Source of the DNA: a virus
Virus record (IMG/VR): IMGVR_UViG_3300021962_000054
Span: 31,796 to 95,795 of that record
Direction: 5' to 3' (one strand)
DNA length: 64,000 nt
The notes beneath the pieces were generated by a model. That model made no database searches, was not told the DNA's origin, and was given only the letters and a program-made list of their open reading frames with translations. The translations under genes and the position numbers were made by a program. This document shows, in pieces, positions 29,268-36,540 of this stretch. Each line of letters starts with the position of its first letter. Within the stretch, counting starts at the first letter, position 1.

Positions 29268-29333
29268 CATAACGGTTAATGCAGCGGACTCATAATCCGT
29301 TGAGTCTAGGTTCAAATCCTAGTGGGCCCACCA
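29258..29333 (+). tRNA. tRNA with CAU anticodon, probably Ile2 (AUA reader)
   Basis: Acceptor GGGCCTA/TGGGCCC, anticodon arm CGGA-CTCATAA-TCCG resembling bacterial tRNA-Ile2, A73, encoded CCA. Lysidine modification by host TilS would make it an Ile tRNA. The first 10 bases overlap the cupin gene's end. Confidence 0.85.
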
Positions 29334-29416
29334 TTTTTTTATATCTATCTATAATACACCCTATTTCCACCGTAAATACTACTGAGGAAACTTACCAATC
29401 CTCTGGAGGAAATAAA

Positions 29417-29647
29417 ATGGATAAAGTATTTGAACACGTAAGCGGCTTTCTAGGCCATTTAATGGATCTAGGAGTCAAATTACTAGCAGTAGGAGTACTA
29501 TTCCAGATCCTATTCGGTGCAGCAGTACCGTTCTTGGGTCTTGATGTAGTCGGAGCAATCACAAACTTTGTGGGTGCTTTAGGTGAAAAAGGCCTAGTAG
29601 GCTTGGTAGCACTATGGGTATTGTTCTGGGCTTGGAATAAGAAGTAA
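29417..29647 (+). CDS. small hydrophobic membrane protein (76 aa)
   Basis: Starts at ATG 29417 after CTGGAGGA. Two hydrophobic helices (VKLLAVGVLFQILFGAAVPFLGL and GLVGLVALWVLFWAW) flank a short loop, ending NKK. Its size and topology match small membrane proteins common in T4-like marine phages. A strong terminator follows, so it is a single-gene unit. Confidence 0.75.
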   Translation: MDKVFEHVSGFLGHLMDLGVKLLAVGVLFQILFGAAVPFLGLDVVGAITNFVGALGEKGLVGLVALWVLFWAWNKK

Positions 29648-30458: not shown

Positions 30459-31052
30459 ATGAAAGAGTGTGAAAATTTTCTTCCTCTTTTTTATCAAAAA
30501 AGGCTACAAGGTTTGTTTGGATCAAATATTTTTCCCTGGCTTTATTACAAAAATGTAAGCGGTCTCGACGCAGCAGAGATGGCTAGCTTGTGTAAAGAAG
30601 ATTCCAACATTAGAGAGGGATATGGTTTTCAACACTTGATTTATGGAGAAAATCAAAAATATGATAAACGACTATATGAAAATTTAAATTTTATAGAATT
30701 ATTTTCTAAAGCAATAAAGTCAAAATTCTCTGTTGAAGTCAATCAAATACTTAGAATTATGGTTGGACTTACTTTGCCTGATATAACTTATAAACCTACT
30801 CAATACTTTTGTCCGCATGTCGACAGGGTTACTACACACCAGACAGTTATATACAATATCAATACACATGATGCTGGCACTAGGATATTCAAAGAAAAAT
30901 TTGATGGAAAACCTAATCTCGACAAGAAAACACACATTCATACCGCTATTAGTAAACAGGGTAGTGCAATATTATTTGATGGGTTGACATATCATGCAGG
31001 CGCCATACCAAATATGTTCGATAAACTAATAATCAACATCAATTTTGTATGA
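30459..31052 (+). CDS. 2OG-Fe(II) oxygenase-like protein 6, Arg site altered
   Basis: This 197-residue paralogue of the 27155-27733 gene shares VEVNQILR, PH-V-D-x-VTTHQT (H120, D122) and ILFDGLTYHAG (H179). The Arg that binds 2-oxoglutarate in the paralogue (DKRIL) is replaced here by Leu (DKLII), so activity is doubtful or the cosubstrate site is changed. It overlaps the next gene by 4 nt. Confidence 0.75.
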   Translation: MKECENFLPLFYQKRLQGLFGSNIFPWLYYKNVSGLDAAEMASLCKEDSNIREGYGFQHLIYGENQKYDKRLYENLNFIELFSKAIKSKFSVEVNQILRIMVGLTLPDITYKPTQYFCPHVDRVTTHQTVIYNINTHDAGTRIFKEKFDGKPNLDKKTHIHTAISKQGSAILFDGLTYHAGAIPNMFDKLIININFV

Positions 31053-31861
31053 GCGATCTACTACATCTCAATACTAATTACTACGTGAACCCTAACGGGC
31101 TGGCATTTGATTTTAGAGATAATAGTGAAATAACTTTGATAAAATTTTTAGGCTATGAAGTAAAACAAAAACCTATCGAACATTTGTTAAGATTTTGGAA
31201 AACTCTGTCACGAAAGTTAGCTGGTTCTGATTGCAACATAGTTATAGTAACAGATAGAGGTAATAATAGACATTATATCGCCAATTATTTTGGCATAGAA
31301 AATGTTTGTAACAATGTTTGGGAGTTATCGAAATTACTAAACGACAAAATCTACCTAAATAGTAAAACAAAACGATGTATCGTGTTCGCAGATTGCGGTG
31401 GCACTATCCCCGCTATTTTGAGTTCTACCATAGTAAAATATCATAGCATAAATGTGACTACTCCCTATCTGACAATAGTCGGTTCAGAAAATGAGTTCGA
31501 TACTAATCAATATACATTGTGGTATTCTAGGGAGTTGTGTGTTGAAATATATCACGATGCACAGGAATTTAGGGATTATTACGATACTTTACAATATTAT
31601 GATCGTTATACACAAGAACCAGACAGTTTATTGAATATGCATTGGGCATCTAATGTAAAAGGAACGGACCTATATTTCAGAAACAGGGCAAATCAATTAC
31701 CAAAAAGATCAAATATCACAATCACAGATCATGTTTTACCGGCGCATATAGAAGGCCACAATCTAACAAAGTATCTATGGGCAAATAAGCAATATCAAGG
31801 GCTTCTAAAACAACAGTTATTGATACAAAAAGGATATCTAGATACTGTCACAAAACTGTAA
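31049..31861 (+). CDS. hypothetical protein (270 aa)
   Basis: This alpha/beta protein has a strand-loop segment RCIVFADCGGTIPAILSS that resembles a nucleotide- or nucleophile-type turn but matches no family I can name. It is coupled to the oxygenase-like gene by an ATGA overlap. It has no signal peptide or transmembrane helix. Confidence 0.6.
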   Translation: MSDLLHLNTNYYVNPNGLAFDFRDNSEITLIKFLGYEVKQKPIEHLLRFWKTLSRKLAGSDCNIVIVTDRGNNRHYIANYFGIENVCNNVWELSKLLNDKIYLNSKTKRCIVFADCGGTIPAILSSTIVKYHSINVTTPYLTIVGSENEFDTNQYTLWYSRELCVEIYHDAQEFRDYYDTLQYYDRYTQEPDSLLNMHWASNVKGTDLYFRNRANQLPKRSNITITDHVLPAHIEGHNLTKYLWANKQYQGLLKQQLLIQKGYLDTVTKL

Positions 31862-31965
31862 CTGTTTTACACACCATGTGCCTCTAAATACCGTTGCCCG
31901 TAAGTTTTATTTGGGTCATCGTGATCCATGTAAATAATCTCGTATAAAAACAAAGGAGACTATAA

Positions 31966-34900
31966 ATGAGTCAATTATCTGGTAAGATTTGGAGCAGGCT
32001 AACAGTTAGTTTAGCTGTCGCTTCAATAGCTCTAGTGTCACTCATGGGTAATCCCGTGAATGCGCAAGAGACGGCTGCCAGTGCTGCAGGTGTTGTTCAA
32101 TCTGAACAGGGTGCAGCTAGCGGCCTATCAGTTGAAGTGCTACACGTTCCATCAGGAACAGTCAGCAAATCAACTACTGATGCAAACGGTAGATATGTTC
32201 TACGCGGTTTGCGTGTAGGTGGTCCTTATAAGGTCACTGTCAAAGGTGAAGGGTACAAAACTGTAGTATTAGAAAATCAGTTTTTAGCCCTCGGAGATAA
32301 CGGTAACTTGAACCTCGTTACAGAATCAAGTGATCTAGCAGAAGTAGTAGTGTTAGCCGGTCGTGCTGATCTAGTATTTGATAGTTCACGCACTGGTACA
32401 GGTACTACAGTTAGCAACGAACAGATCGTAGCACTCCCAACAATCAGTCGTAATATTCAGGATCTCGTAAGAACAGATCCTCGTATCGCTCAGACTGATA
32501 AAGAGCGTGGTGAAATTTCAGCAGGTGGACAAAACACTCGCTTCAACAACATTCGTATTGACGGTGTCAGCACCAACGATGCGTTTGGTCTTGAAGCAAA
32601 CAATCTACCAACTGATCGTCAACCAATTCCGTTGGATGCAATCGAATCAATCAATATCGCATTGACAGATTTCGACGTTGCTCGTTCGTCATTCACTGGC
32701 GCAAGCATCGACGCAATCACTAAGTCAGGTACAAACAAGTGGAGGGGAACTTCATACTTCCTCACACGCGATGCTGACTGGGTCGGAAAGCGCAATGGTC
32801 AAAAGTTCAACGGTTTCGATAAAGAAGAAACAGTTGGCTTGACTATCGGCGGTCCAATCATTGAAGACAAGTTGTTCGTCTTTGCTTCTTATGAGAAGTT
32901 TGAACGCGCAGCATTGGCTCCAACATTTGGTCCAACTGGTTCTGATAGCGCACAGATCGTAACAGGTATTTCACAAGCACAACTTGATGAAGCCGCAGCA
33001 ATCGCTAAAGATGTATGGGGTTTCGACGCTGGTTCATTCAATCCTCCCGGTGCTCTAAACACTGAGATTGAAGATATCATGGTCAAGTTTGACTGGAACA
33101 TCAATGACAGTCATCGTGCTGCTCTACGTGTCAATCGCACAGAGCAAAGCGATCCATACTTACGTAATATCGGACCACGTGATCTTTCATTGAGTGGTTA
33201 CTGGCACATCAATAACAAGAAGTTTGAAAGTGCGGTTGCTCATTTGTATAGCAACTGGACAGACAATCTTTCAACTGAGATGTCAGTCAGTGTCGCCAAT
33301 CAAAGTTCACTTTGGGATATCGGCGATCCTCGTCCAACAGTTCGCATCTGCTTGAACAGTTCATCCTGTTCTGGTGCTGATAGCATTTGGTTGGGTAGCG
33401 AGAGATTCCGTCATGTGAACATTCTTGAAACTGAAACATTGAACGCATTCGCAGCAGCAACTTATGTTGTTGGTGATCATGCTATCAAGTTCGGTGCTGA
33501 ATACGAAACAAGAGATATCTTCAATCTCTTCGGACGTGATCAGTTTGGTTACTATGAGTTCTATGGCTTGAATAACTTCCGTTCAGGTACACCAGCAGTT
33601 TACAACCTTTTCTATCCAGTCAATGGTGATGTAAACAGCCGTGCTGCTGCTTGGACATTAGAGAATGCTGCCGTGTTCTTACAGGATACTTGGACAATCA
33701 GCCCAACGTTGAATGTCACAGCAGGTGTTCGTGTTGATATGCCAATCGTGGGAGATACTCCTCCATACAATGCTGTTGCCAGTGACTTCTTTGGTCTACG
33801 CAACGACAGCACTCCAGATGGTAACTATCTCATTCAACCACGTGTTGGATTCAACTGGCAACCAGAATGGTCTGATCGTAAGACACAGGTTCGTGGTGGC
33901 GTTGGCTTGTTCCAAGGTATCGCCGCTAACGTGTGGTTGAGCAATCCATTCAGCAACAATAACGTGACTCAGGGAGCAATCTTTGATAATCGTGCTGCTC
34001 AGAATGGCATCGTGTTCAGTCCAGATCCAAACAATCAGCCAGGAGTTCGTCCACCACCAGGACTTGGTGGTAACGTTGACTTCTTGAGTCCAGACCTACA
34101 ACTCCCAGCAGCATATAAAGTTTCTTTCGCTGTTGATCATGAGTTGCCATGGTACGGATTGGTTGCAAGTTTTGAGACTGTTCTAACTGAAGTCGATGAA
34201 GGCATTCGCTATGTGAAGCCAAACTTAGGCGCACCAACAGGAGTTGCTCCAGATGGTCGTCCATTGTATTGGTCAACTGTGAATCCTGCTACCTTCACTG
34301 GTTCAAGTTCACAGCGTACAGCCAACACAAATCGTGACTTTGGTGTAGATTCAACGATTGCTCTACCAACATCGAAAGGTGATGGTAAGCAGTTCACTGT
34401 TTCATTACAAGGTCCTCAGAATGAGAACTGGTACTGGAACGTTGGATACACCTACACTGAAGCAACTGAAGTCAATACATTGACATCTTCACAAGCCGCA
34501 TCAAATTGGAACAACGCAGTTCGTGTTGATACCAACGCCGATGTTGCCGAGAAGTCAGTGTATGCCATCAAAGATCGTTTCACGGCAACTGTAAGTTATC
34601 GTAAGAAGTTCTTTGCTGACTTAGTAAGCTCAGTTGGTGTGTTCTATGAAGGTCGCATTGGTCGCCCATACACTTTCACTTTCGTCAATGACGCAAACGG
34701 CGATGGTCGTGTAAACGATCCATTCTTTGTGCCAAACAGAGGTGATGTTGTATTCAAGGGCGGTGCTGCTATGGAGCAAGCATTCTTTGATTATCTTGCT
34801 TCAAACGGTGAACTCGCTAAGTATCAAGGTGGTATTGCTGAAGTAAACAACAACAATGCTCCTTGGGTTCATAACGTTGACATTCGCCTCTCACAAGAAT

Positions 34901-35157
34901 TGCCAGTCTTTGGTGATGTGAAGGGTGAAGTATGGCTCGACATCATGAACGTTGGCAACATGATCAATAAGGATTGGGGTGTGATTGAAGAAGTCGGATT
35001 CCCAGGTGCCTTTGGTGTTGCTCGTTTCGCTGGTGTTGACGCTTCAGGAAAGTATGTCTACGATTTCCGTGCTTCGGATCTACGTGACTTGACTCTCCGC
35101 GACAACCGTGGTGAATCACGCTGGGCGATGCAGCTCGGTGTCAAGTTCAAGTTCTAA
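31966..35157 (+). CDS. TonB-dependent outer-membrane receptor (Oar-like)
   Basis: This is a 1063-residue protein. Signal peptide 1-33 (hydrophobic core SLAVASIALVSLMG, cleavage near VNA). Residues about 45-115 form a CarboxypepD_reg-like domain (TDANGRYVLRGL). About 135-260 form the plug (NIRIDGVSTND, SFTGASIDAITKSG). The rest is a 22-strand-type beta barrel ending in aromatic-terminated MQLGVKFKF, the BAM recognition end. It is intact, with AGGAG before the ATG and a terminator after. Its G+C and codon use look higher than those of neighbours. TonB receptors import siderophores, vitamins or glycans; here a role in nutrient uptake or receptor masking is inferred. Confidence 0.9.
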   Translation: MSQLSGKIWSRLTVSLAVASIALVSLMGNPVNAQETAASAAGVVQSEQGAASGLSVEVLHVPSGTVSKSTTDANGRYVLRGLRVGGPYKVTVKGEGYKTVVLENQFLALGDNGNLNLVTESSDLAEVVVLAGRADLVFDSSRTGTGTTVSNEQIVALPTISRNIQDLVRTDPRIAQTDKERGEISAGGQNTRFNNIRIDGVSTNDAFGLEANNLPTDRQPIPLDAIESINIALTDFDVARSSFTGASIDAITKSGTNKWRGTSYFLTRDADWVGKRNGQKFNGFDKEETVGLTIGGPIIEDKLFVFASYEKFERAALAPTFGPTGSDSAQIVTGISQAQLDEAAAIAKDVWGFDAGSFNPPGALNTEIEDIMVKFDWNINDSHRAALRVNRTEQSDPYLRNIGPRDLSLSGYWHINNKKFESAVAHLYSNWTDNLSTEMSVSVANQSSLWDIGDPRPTVRICLNSSSCSGADSIWLGSERFRHVNILETETLNAFAAATYVVGDHAIKFGAEYETRDIFNLFGRDQFGYYEFYGLNNFRSGTPAVYNLFYPVNGDVNSRAAAWTLENAAVFLQDTWTISPTLNVTAGVRVDMPIVGDTPPYNAVASDFFGLRNDSTPDGNYLIQPRVGFNWQPEWSDRKTQVRGGVGLFQGIAANVWLSNPFSNNNVTQGAIFDNRAAQNGIVFSPDPNNQPGVRPPPGLGGNVDFLSPDLQLPAAYKVSFAVDHELPWYGLVASFETVLTEVDEGIRYVKPNLGAPTGVAPDGRPLYWSTVNPATFTGSSSQRTANTNRDFGVDSTIALPTSKGDGKQFTVSLQGPQNENWYWNVGYTYTEATEVNTLTSSQAASNWNNAVRVDTNADVAEKSVYAIKDRFTATVSYRKKFFADLVSSVGVFYEGRIGRPYTFTFVNDANGDGRVNDPFFVPNRGDVVFKGGAAMEQAFFDYLASNGELAKYQGGIAEVNNNNAPWVHNVDIRLSQELPVFGDVKGEVWLDIMNVGNMINKDWGVIEEVGFPGAFGVARFAGVDASGKYVYDFRASDLRDLTLRDNRGESRWAMQLGVKFKF

Positions 35158-35315
35158 TGAATTTGAAATATGACAACAAGAAGGGGAGCAAAAACTCCCC
35201 TTCTTTTTTGGATATAGAAAGTCCGTTATGGCTACTATTGTATTGTCTAATATCATGCACTATTGGTATAGGCTTGATATTGACTATGTTATTTTTTGTG
35301 TCAAACTTTGCGTAA
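35157..35315 (+). CDS. possible small membrane protein (52 aa)
   Basis: The ATG overlaps the receptor stop (TAATG). A polar N-terminus is followed by a transmembrane segment (LWLLLYCLISCTIGIGLILTMLFFV). The terminator hairpin lies within codons 8-17, so the ORF may be fortuitous or poorly transcribed. Confidence 0.35.
   Translation: MNLKYDNKKGSKNSPSFLDIESPLWLLLYCLISCTIGIGLILTMLFFVSNFA
35178..35209 (+). terminator. rho-independent terminator after the TonB receptor
   Basis: An 11-bp stem AAGAAGGGGAG / CTCCCCTTCTT with a CAAAAA loop and TTTT tail. Confidence 0.9.
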
Positions 35316-35385: not shown

Positions 35386-35481
35386 ATGTCCCGAGAGGTT
35401 CATATCTAACATTCCTATAGGTCTTTGACTTATGTGTATGTTATTTGGATCGAACGGGACATCATGCCATTTATTTGGCAT
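35386..35481 (+). promoter_or_regulatory. structured 5' leader of the porin gene
   Basis: ATGTCCCG (35386-35393) pairs with CGGGACAT (35455-35462), and a hairpin ATGCCA/TGGCAT (35464-35481) ends just before the AAGGAG site. The arrangement suggests control of porin translation or mRNA stability; no known riboswitch class is recognised. Confidence 0.45.
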
Positions 35482-35503: not shown

Positions 35504-36481
35504 ATGCGTAAAGCATTTTTGACATTAGTTATGTTAGGATCACTTTCTGCAACTGCTATTGCTGGTGAACTAAATCTAAATGGTGGCATCGGCTATCGTT
35601 TTGACAGTGTAGAACTAGCAGCAGGACCAAAATCAGAAAAAGATCGTCTTGGAGCAGAGTTGGTATTATCAAACAAGGTCAACGACAAGATCAATGCTGT
35701 CGTAGGTCTACGTACTGGTAGTTTCAACAGCCAATACGATGATATGGGTCCAGGTGGTCAGTTGAAGGATGTGAATCTACACCTAGCATATGTTGAATAC
35801 GCTGCTATGGATAATGTCAAGGTAACACTTGGCAAGATGCATCAACCTTGGGCAAGTTCACCAAGTCTATTTTTTGACCGTGACGTAAAGCCAGAAGGCG
35901 TGGCAGTAAGTTGGAAGAGTGAATCAGGATTGTTTGCTAATGCTTCAAGTCTAAAACTTGTAGAAGGCGGCATCAACGATGATTCTAAGGTACAGAGCCT
36001 ACAAGTCGGCTTGCATAAGAATCTAGCAGGACTTCACTTCAAGGGCGCAGTAGCACTACATGATCATAAGATCAAGCACGTTGCTATCGGCGGCATCAGT
36101 GATGCTAAATTACAGCAAGCATTTGCTTCAGTAGGAACAAAATTCGCTGGTAAGCCAGTAGTATTGTTCGCAGACTACATGAAGAACGACAAGGCAAGTG
36201 CAGAGGACACAGCCCTAGCATATGGTATCAAGTTTGGACATGCTAAGAAACCACAAGAGTGGGATCTAAGCGTATTCCATCAAGATGTAGAAGCCAATGC
36301 TCAGTTTGGTTTGTGGAATGATTCTGACTTTGCTCTATCACAAGGTGGTCACAAAGGCTATGGTCTAGTCGGTGGCTATGTTGTAGCAGACGGTTGGAAA
36401 GTAAACGCCAAGTATTTCGATGTTGAAATCGGAAATGCTGATGTAAAGCGTCTACAACTAGACTTGAATTACATGTTCTAA
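35504..36481 (+). CDS. outer-membrane porin
   Basis: 325 residues with a clear signal peptide (MRKAFLTLVMLGSLSATAIA), then alternating amphipathic beta strands (LNLNGGIGYRF, VYVEYAAM-type, GYGLVGGYVVADGWKVNAKYF) and the C-terminal aromatic LDLNYMF, as in outer-membrane porins. It is probably a diffusion channel. A terminator follows. Porins are very rare on phage genomes; the classic example is the lambdoid nmpC/lc type, which is unrelated in sequence as far as I can tell. Confidence 0.8.
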   Translation: MRKAFLTLVMLGSLSATAIAGELNLNGGIGYRFDSVELAAGPKSEKDRLGAELVLSNKVNDKINAVVGLRTGSFNSQYDDMGPGGQLKDVNLHLAYVEYAAMDNVKVTLGKMHQPWASSPSLFFDRDVKPEGVAVSWKSESGLFANASSLKLVEGGINDDSKVQSLQVGLHKNLAGLHFKGAVALHDHKIKHVAIGGISDAKLQQAFASVGTKFAGKPVVLFADYMKNDKASAEDTALAYGIKFGHAKKPQEWDLSVFHQDVEANAQFGLWNDSDFALSQGGHKGYGLVGGYVVADGWKVNAKYFDVEIGNADVKRLQLDLNYMF

Positions 36482-36508: not shown

Positions 36509-36540
36509 AGGGGAGATAGAAATATCTCCTCTTTTCTTTT
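36509..36540 (+). terminator. rho-independent terminator after porin
   Basis: GGAGATA-GAAA-TATCTCC stem, extended by three pairs, followed by a T-rich run. It shares the GATA-GAAA-TATC core with the 27.1-kb terminator. Confidence 0.85.

Follow-up and report, generated by a model that had tools for sequence, protein, structure and literature searches.

A complete TonB-dependent receptor gene in a phosphate-gene slot of a T4-superfamily phage, possibly an auxiliary gene for nutrient uptake

Complete TonB-dependent receptors (TBDRs) have been found in phages before. A SusC-type receptor occurs in the large marine phage Mar_Mega_1 and in LR745206, where it was interpreted as serving carbohydrate uptake, with phosphate context absent from the accessible part of that account (PMC9723777), and a TBDR is annotated in Polarivirus skadi, lying between tail-tube and capsid genes and taken as a hint of the adsorption receptor (PMC10504331). 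Phage genes under the control of the host regulator PhoB are also known, from lytic T4-type cyanophages (P-SSM2 pstS, S-PM2d) whose Pho consensus differs and for which neither a porin nor a TBDR is mentioned (PMC10976474). In bacteria under phosphorus stress, lipids are remodelled by the plcP-agt system (PMC8528852), in which PlcP releases diacylglycerol and phosphate groups from phospholipids and a glycosyltransferase substitutes glycolipids (PMC4796936). Here we describe a TBDR gene in a 64,000-nucleotide stretch of viral DNA (hereafter the window; positions 31,796 to 95,795 of the 95,795-bp linear IMG/VR virus record IMGVR_UViG_3300021962_000054). It occupies a slot that related phages fill with phosphate-stress genes, a context that we did not find in the papers searched. 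We suggest, with middling confidence and from sequence-based evidence, that it may be an auxiliary gene controlled by host PhoB and powered by host TonB, taking up phosphorus or nutrients derived from nucleic acids.

A reading made earlier from the letters of the DNA alone (the sequence-only reading) had described an intact Oar-like receptor with signal peptide, plug and barrel, carried by a phage and followed by its own terminator, and this description holds in each of its parts: the 1063 codons are uninterrupted, the domains are recognized by Pfam models, the predicted fold is that of a TBDR, a terminator hairpin follows (Table 1), and portal, major head protein and tail-fibre genes lie on the same contig, together with ribonucleotide reductase. 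The protein combines a PF13620 domain with an OMP_b-brl_4 barrel (PF25183), as in the Oar-like subgroup, while the classic barrel model, PF00593, falls slightly short of its cut-off (26.4 vs 27), and it ends in ...GVKFKF, with the final phenylalanine found in outer-membrane proteins. Its AlphaFold2 model, built from 19 sequences, has a predicted local confidence (pLDDT) of 75.6 and a predicted template-modelling score (pTM) of 0.76, and the PDB structures listed as its fold matches are without exception TBDRs (YddB, FusA, Cir, FepA and others; E down to 6e-28). The candidate TonB box lies in a flexible linker of low confidence between the N-terminal domain and the plug (pLDDT <50 at residues 113-135). 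A sequence search against solved structures matched neither the receptor nor the adjoining porin, and scans with PHROGs and NCBIfam assigned the receptor to no family. The portal and major head protein genes place the contig in the T4 superfamily, the portal sharing 52-54% identity with its counterparts in PA5oct-type Pseudomonas phages and in Sinorhizobium phage Phosso. Because the genomes of these relatives measure 284-469 kb, the 95.8-kb record is probably a fragment.

The strongest indication of a role comes from the place that the gene occupies. The porin that follows it belongs to a family present in seven other viral contigs (65-76% identity), and a small conserved gene marks the left boundary of a variable slot beside it (Table 1). 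In L031, a contig syntenic with the window on either side of the slot, the slot contains plcP and a GT4 glycosyltransferase gene; in L033 and L034 it contains pstS, and in L035 plcP with a GT2 glycosyltransferase gene, while in L036 and L037 the plcP-GT2 pair stands immediately 5' of the porin. In the window, the slot is taken by the TBDR gene, which is absent from all seven of those porin-bearing contigs. A second link to phosphate genes is found in L003, a 55-kb viral contig in which a plcP-GT4 pair stands directly 3' of a related TBDR gene. A structure prediction for the porin (8 sequences) reached a pLDDT of 30 and was unusable. Immediately 5' of its ribosome-binding site lies a hairpin, ATGCCA-loop-TGGCAT (window 35464-35481), which recurs at the same place in L031-L037; one compensatory change was seen among the 7 sequences, which are too few to judge.

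Two phage copies of the receptor were found besides the one in the window, one 82% identical over 580 aa in the viral contig L002, beside sliding-clamp-like, clamp-loader-like and Hsp20 genes, and one 86% identical over the last 143 aa in L003. Both contigs are interrupted within the gene, L002 at its end and L003 at its start, which may reflect several gene variants in one sample. Since assemblies usually break at such places, these ends lend something to the possibility, raised by the sequence-only reading, that the window joins bacterial DNA to a phage contig. Such a chimera is very unlikely, because two independent phage contigs with other phage flanks have copies 82-86% identical to that in the window; moreover, no bacterial genome was found with a receptor more than 46% identical, and synteny with L031 extends over the porin and the flanks. 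Copies elsewhere are scarce. A phage-only alignment search returned L002 again and nothing else, and a search of 50,697 phage records gave a sole match, in MT837825.1 (2490-5648, 28.8%), an unannotated 6-kb faecal contig that is only putatively phage. In the BFVD viral fold library the sole other complete or strong TBDR-like match was A0A8D9FQQ5, 'TonB-dependent receptor SusC [uncultured marine phage]', perhaps the same as or similar to the megaphage SusC, with which the window receptor shares 11% identity in structural alignment.

The closest bacterial relatives found are Oar-like TBDRs of the Lysobacteraceae (Lysobacter, Stenotrophomonas, Pseudoxanthomonas), alike in full-length architecture and 43-46% identical. 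The phylogeny proposed with the sequence-only reading bears this out: the three phage receptors form one clade (support 100/100) on a long branch (0.71), nested inside Lysobacteraceae-type receptors (100/98). The bacterial genes stand by ppnN, whereas the phage genes stand by the porin or by plcP-GT4. The ratio of nonsynonymous to synonymous divergence (dN/dS) is 0.15 against L002 and 0.20 against L003 over the aligned part, and the gene is under purifying selection. Its synonymous distance between the window and L003 is 0.48 (143 codons), below the 0.70 measured for the porin in the comparison with syntenic L031, even though the window and L003 have almost nothing else in common over the 10 kb compared; the gene has therefore been transferred among phage lineages, directly or via a shared host pool. 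Intact, constrained, exchanged between phages and placed in a phosphate-gene slot, it is probably a selected phage auxiliary gene. It could be argued instead that the gene is cargo that spreads among phages and hosts with no clear benefit to the phage, as its patchy distribution (absent from the related porin-bearing contigs, present in otherwise unrelated phages) might indicate. We regard this as distinctly improbable given three divergent phage copies in one clade at these dN/dS values, and a gene equipped with its own terminator, a strong ribosome-binding site and capsid-like codon bias.

That codon bias also bears on a further claim, that base and codon composition set the gene apart from its neighbours. 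The difference itself is real: the guanine-plus-cytosine (GC) content of the TBDR gene is 0.456, against 0.335 for the upstream gene and 0.428 for the downstream porin. As a mark of foreign origin it is weak, because the major capsid gene of the same phage has a GC of 0.455 and the codon bias of the receptor leans toward it. When 76 open reading frames (ORFs) were ranked by similarity to capsid codon usage, the capsid gene came first, the TBDR gene fifth and the porin ninth; relative to the contig, the TBDR gene prefers CCA for proline (0.78 vs 0.45) and CGT for arginine (0.61 vs 0.32) and avoids ATA for isoleucine (0.02 vs 0.32). Composition as proof of recent transfer is thus ruled out, although a foreign origin is still compatible with it, and the capsid-like bias fits selection for high expression.

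What the receptor might transport is suggested by the surroundings of its bacterial homologues. We examined 13 to 17 gammaproteobacterial loci, several of them from closely related xanthomonads, which fall into two clades of the tree, with a query set comprising nupC, udk, tdk, deoA, cdd, nuclease, 5'-nucleotidase, alkaline phosphatase, PhoD and ppnN. In each of these loci, a nucleoside-, nucleotide- or phosphatase-type gene lies no more than about 6 kb away. Depending on the locus, the sister-clade genes adjoin the nucleoside transporter nupC, a kinase for uridine or thymidine, thymidine phosphorylase, cytidine deaminase, alkaline phosphatase, a nuclease-phosphatase, PhoD, or a nuclease together with 5'-nucleotidase; the xanthomonad members of the phage's own clade adjoin ppnN (nucleotide nucleosidase), and its deepest member adjoins PhoD. 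The same query set matched at none of 15 Bacteroidota loci and at none of 4 loci of other TBDRs in the same xanthomonad genomes. Therefore, genome context points to substrates that would be derived from nucleic acids or bear phosphorus. In the accessible parts of the open-access papers found on TBDRs with NupC, there was nothing on this linkage.

It would also be conceivable that the receptor imports some other nutrient, such as an iron-siderophore or a carbohydrate, and that its phosphate-linked neighbours are a coincidence of an accessory hotspot. The TBDR class has many ligands, the nearest solved folds are receptors for siderophores and proteins, and the megaphage SusC was, as noted, interpreted as a carbohydrate transporter (PMC9723777, accessible part). 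Accessory slots, furthermore, may house unrelated genes, and the slot in the window holds three further ORFs that are unknown or weakly typed, a point that also counts against our preferred explanation. However, two of the three phage copies have a phosphate-linked immediate neighbour (the porin, or plcP-GT4), the bacterial homologues adjoin nucleoside and phosphatase genes, and the ORF lists and family scans examined showed no iron or carbohydrate gene beside the homologues. We consider import of another nutrient unlikely, if a serious contender.

Control by host PhoB is suggested by a site upstream of the gene (Table 1). Scored with a PhoB matrix that we set by hand from general knowledge, this site is the highest in the 95.8 kb, and its score was reached in 0 of 60 simulations (maximum 18.3); the 99th percentile of 298 control upstream regions was 11.8. 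The same matrix finds a CTGTCAC-type site before Pseudomonas aeruginosa plcP, with the half-site CTGTCAC that also occurs at the TBDR gene, and PhoB-like sites scoring 14-16 before several phage plcP genes. As a group, the module genes score above controls (p about 1e-13, for loci that are not independent). Pho-like sites before the bacterial homologues were suggestive in G360 and Lysobacter (0/100 shuffles) and were left out of the main evidence because they are weak in most. Four xanthomonad homologues (L005, L006, L013, L179) share a conserved direct repeat, GTGTTAATCTAGTGTTAA, with an 11-bp period, after a weak Pho-like site; it is possibly a site for an OmpR-family regulator.

Several observations weigh against PhoB control and phosphorus uptake. 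The site departs from the strict consensus at 3 positions, and 13 equally good sites occur contig-wide where 9 are expected. It lies across the 3' end of the preceding gene, stop codon included, and PhoB sites within genes are mostly inert in Escherichia coli, according to the accessible part of one study (PMC10294691); an experiment has found Pho-box prediction in phages unreliable (PMC10976474). The upstream region of the L002 receptor gene, scanned with the PhoB matrix, lacks a site. Relatives of plcP, of agt-like genes and of pstS are all absent from the 95.8-kb contig, which is linear and probably a fragment. Finally, the nucleoside-transporter neighbourhoods belong to the sister clade rather than to the phage's own, where ppnN or PhoD is found, and the ppnN adjacency may be plain shared synteny.

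If PhoB control and phosphorus uptake nonetheless describe the gene correctly, PhoB of a phosphate-starved host would activate it from the predicted site, and the product would be inserted into the outer membrane and energised by host TonB-ExbBD. Its substrate would contain phosphorus or derive from nucleic acids, as do nucleotides, nucleosides and the breakdown products of DNA. The adjoining porin would offer an additional passive route, and phage DNA synthesis could draw on the phosphate and nucleotides that the two together provide. Three functions had been offered by the sequence-only reading, namely nutrient import, receptor exchange and superinfection control. Import gains from the phosphate-gene slot, the PhoB-box-like site and the nucleoside and phosphatase neighbours of the homologues; for the other two, we found evidence neither in favour nor excluding them. 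TBDRs and porins serve many phages as adsorption receptors, and a phage-encoded receptor could displace, mask or mimic the receptor of competing phages or of the phage's own progeny, the more so as the product is probably abundant, judging by its codon bias, and a second outer-membrane protein gene follows. Such a role seems rather improbable to us: nothing marks the protein as a mimic, given purifying selection over the aligned part and a full set of domains including the plug, which would be unneeded for passive masking, and the genomic context favours phosphate genes.

Table 1. Features at the receptor locus, in window coordinates.
Feature	Position	Strand	Basis or remark
Conserved small gene, left boundary of variable slot	29279-29647	+	orthologues, same porin side, in L031, L033, L034, L035
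270-aa ORF without known family, in slot, immediately 5' of TBDR gene	31049-31861	+	ORF list, family scans
PhoB-box-like site CTGTCACAAAACTGTAAC	31845-31862	+	matrix score 19.4; 103 bp 5' of ATG
Ribosome-binding site AAAGGAG	31952-31958	+	read from sequence; strong
TBDR, 1063 aa, intact	31966-35157	+	open frame, Pfam, AlphaFold2, fold search
Signal-peptide-like N terminus, residues 1-33	31966-32064	+	sequence MSQLSGK...NPVNA/QE
Carboxypeptidase-regulatory-like domain, residues 42-117	32089-32316	+	PF13620 48.5 bits
Possible TonB box LAEVVVLA, residues 124-131	32335-32358	+	resemblance only
Plug, residues 145-231	32398-32658	+	PF07715 25.5 bits, cut-off 23.9
Beta-barrel, about residues 250-1063	32713-35154	+	PF25183 134 bits, AlphaFold2, Foldseek
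Intrinsic terminator after TBDR gene, 11-pair stem	35178-35205	+	hairpin
Phage porin, 325 aa, signal peptide	35504-36481	+	Porin_5 52 bits; weaker Porin_O_P
Terminator-like hairpin following porin	36509-36532	+	hairpin

The genes that fill the slot in related phages suggest a wider setting. Their calcineurin-like phosphoesterase is PlcP-like, being 49-50% identical to a P. aeruginosa protein whose gene immediately precedes a glycosyltransferase gene and cyaB, a locus that we take to be PA3219-PA3218-PA3217. PA3219-PA3218 is the plcP-agt1 pair of P. aeruginosa (PMC8528852), and the glycosyltransferase of that locus shares 34-37% identity with the phage GT4s. An identity as LpxH was rejected, as the LpxH models gave 34-49 bits against cut-offs of 134-190, in addition to the P. 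aeruginosa match. A search of 274 gammaproteobacterial genomes with the phosphoesterase returned a strong group (30-54% identity, E <1e-35) and a second, weak, LpxH-like group (E around 1e-5 to 1e-10), sometimes both in one genome. Among at least 79 phage plcP loci (L083-L161, and L003, L031 and L035-L037 among related contigs), a GT4 or GT2 glycosyltransferase gene is adjacent in 58/79, pstS is adjacent in 12/79, and a porin of the window family is present in 10/79. The plcP-glycosyltransferase pair is widespread, and is a possible phage lipid-remodelling cassette. It keeps the bacterial order, plcP followed by the glycosyltransferase gene (PMC4796936, PMC8528852), but differs from the bacterial system in being coupled to pstS, to the porin and, in two phages, to a TBDR gene; the pair itself is absent from the contig of the window. 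Neither such a cassette nor a TBDR and porin in a phage phosphate module was found in the open-access papers searched, nor was any paper on phage-encoded PlcP.

It is tempting to go further and propose, more tentatively, that T4-superfamily phages have an exchangeable, host-PhoB-controlled envelope module (porin, PstS, PlcP with glycosyltransferase, TBDR). A phosphate-starved infected cell might use it to scavenge phosphorus both from the phospholipids of its own membranes and from nucleic acids in its surroundings, with breakdown products of nucleotides or DNA entering through the TBDR as precursors for phage DNA. To our knowledge, the phage phosphate genes known so far (PstS, PhoA, PhoH, DNA metabolism) act in the periplasm or the cytoplasm; if the proposal is true, the TBDR and porin would bring the outer membrane, the actual barrier to entry into the cell, within reach of phage control over host nutrition, and the plcP-glycosyltransferase pair would let phages release phosphate from host phospholipids. 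Uncharacterised gammaproteobacterial Oar-like receptors would also gain a testable guess at their ligands. As swapped porins, TBDRs and membrane lipids would alter phage adsorption, nutrition and superinfection may be linked.

The phage cassette deserves a separate study, for which an isolate could serve as an experimental system for plcP and pstS: in Pelagibacter phage Mosig EXVC030M (MT647606.1, 93031-94866), pstS and a plcP-like gene, annotated as UDP-2,3-diacylglucosamine hydrolase, lie divergently side by side, flanked by tRNAs and baseplate genes. Elsewhere in the window, 26 tRNA genes with small ORFs between them are spread over 14399-36949 and serve almost every amino acid, and a single phage protein (37958-39820), also found in L031 and L037, joins a subtilase domain to a C-terminal endosialidase-chaperone (S74) domain.

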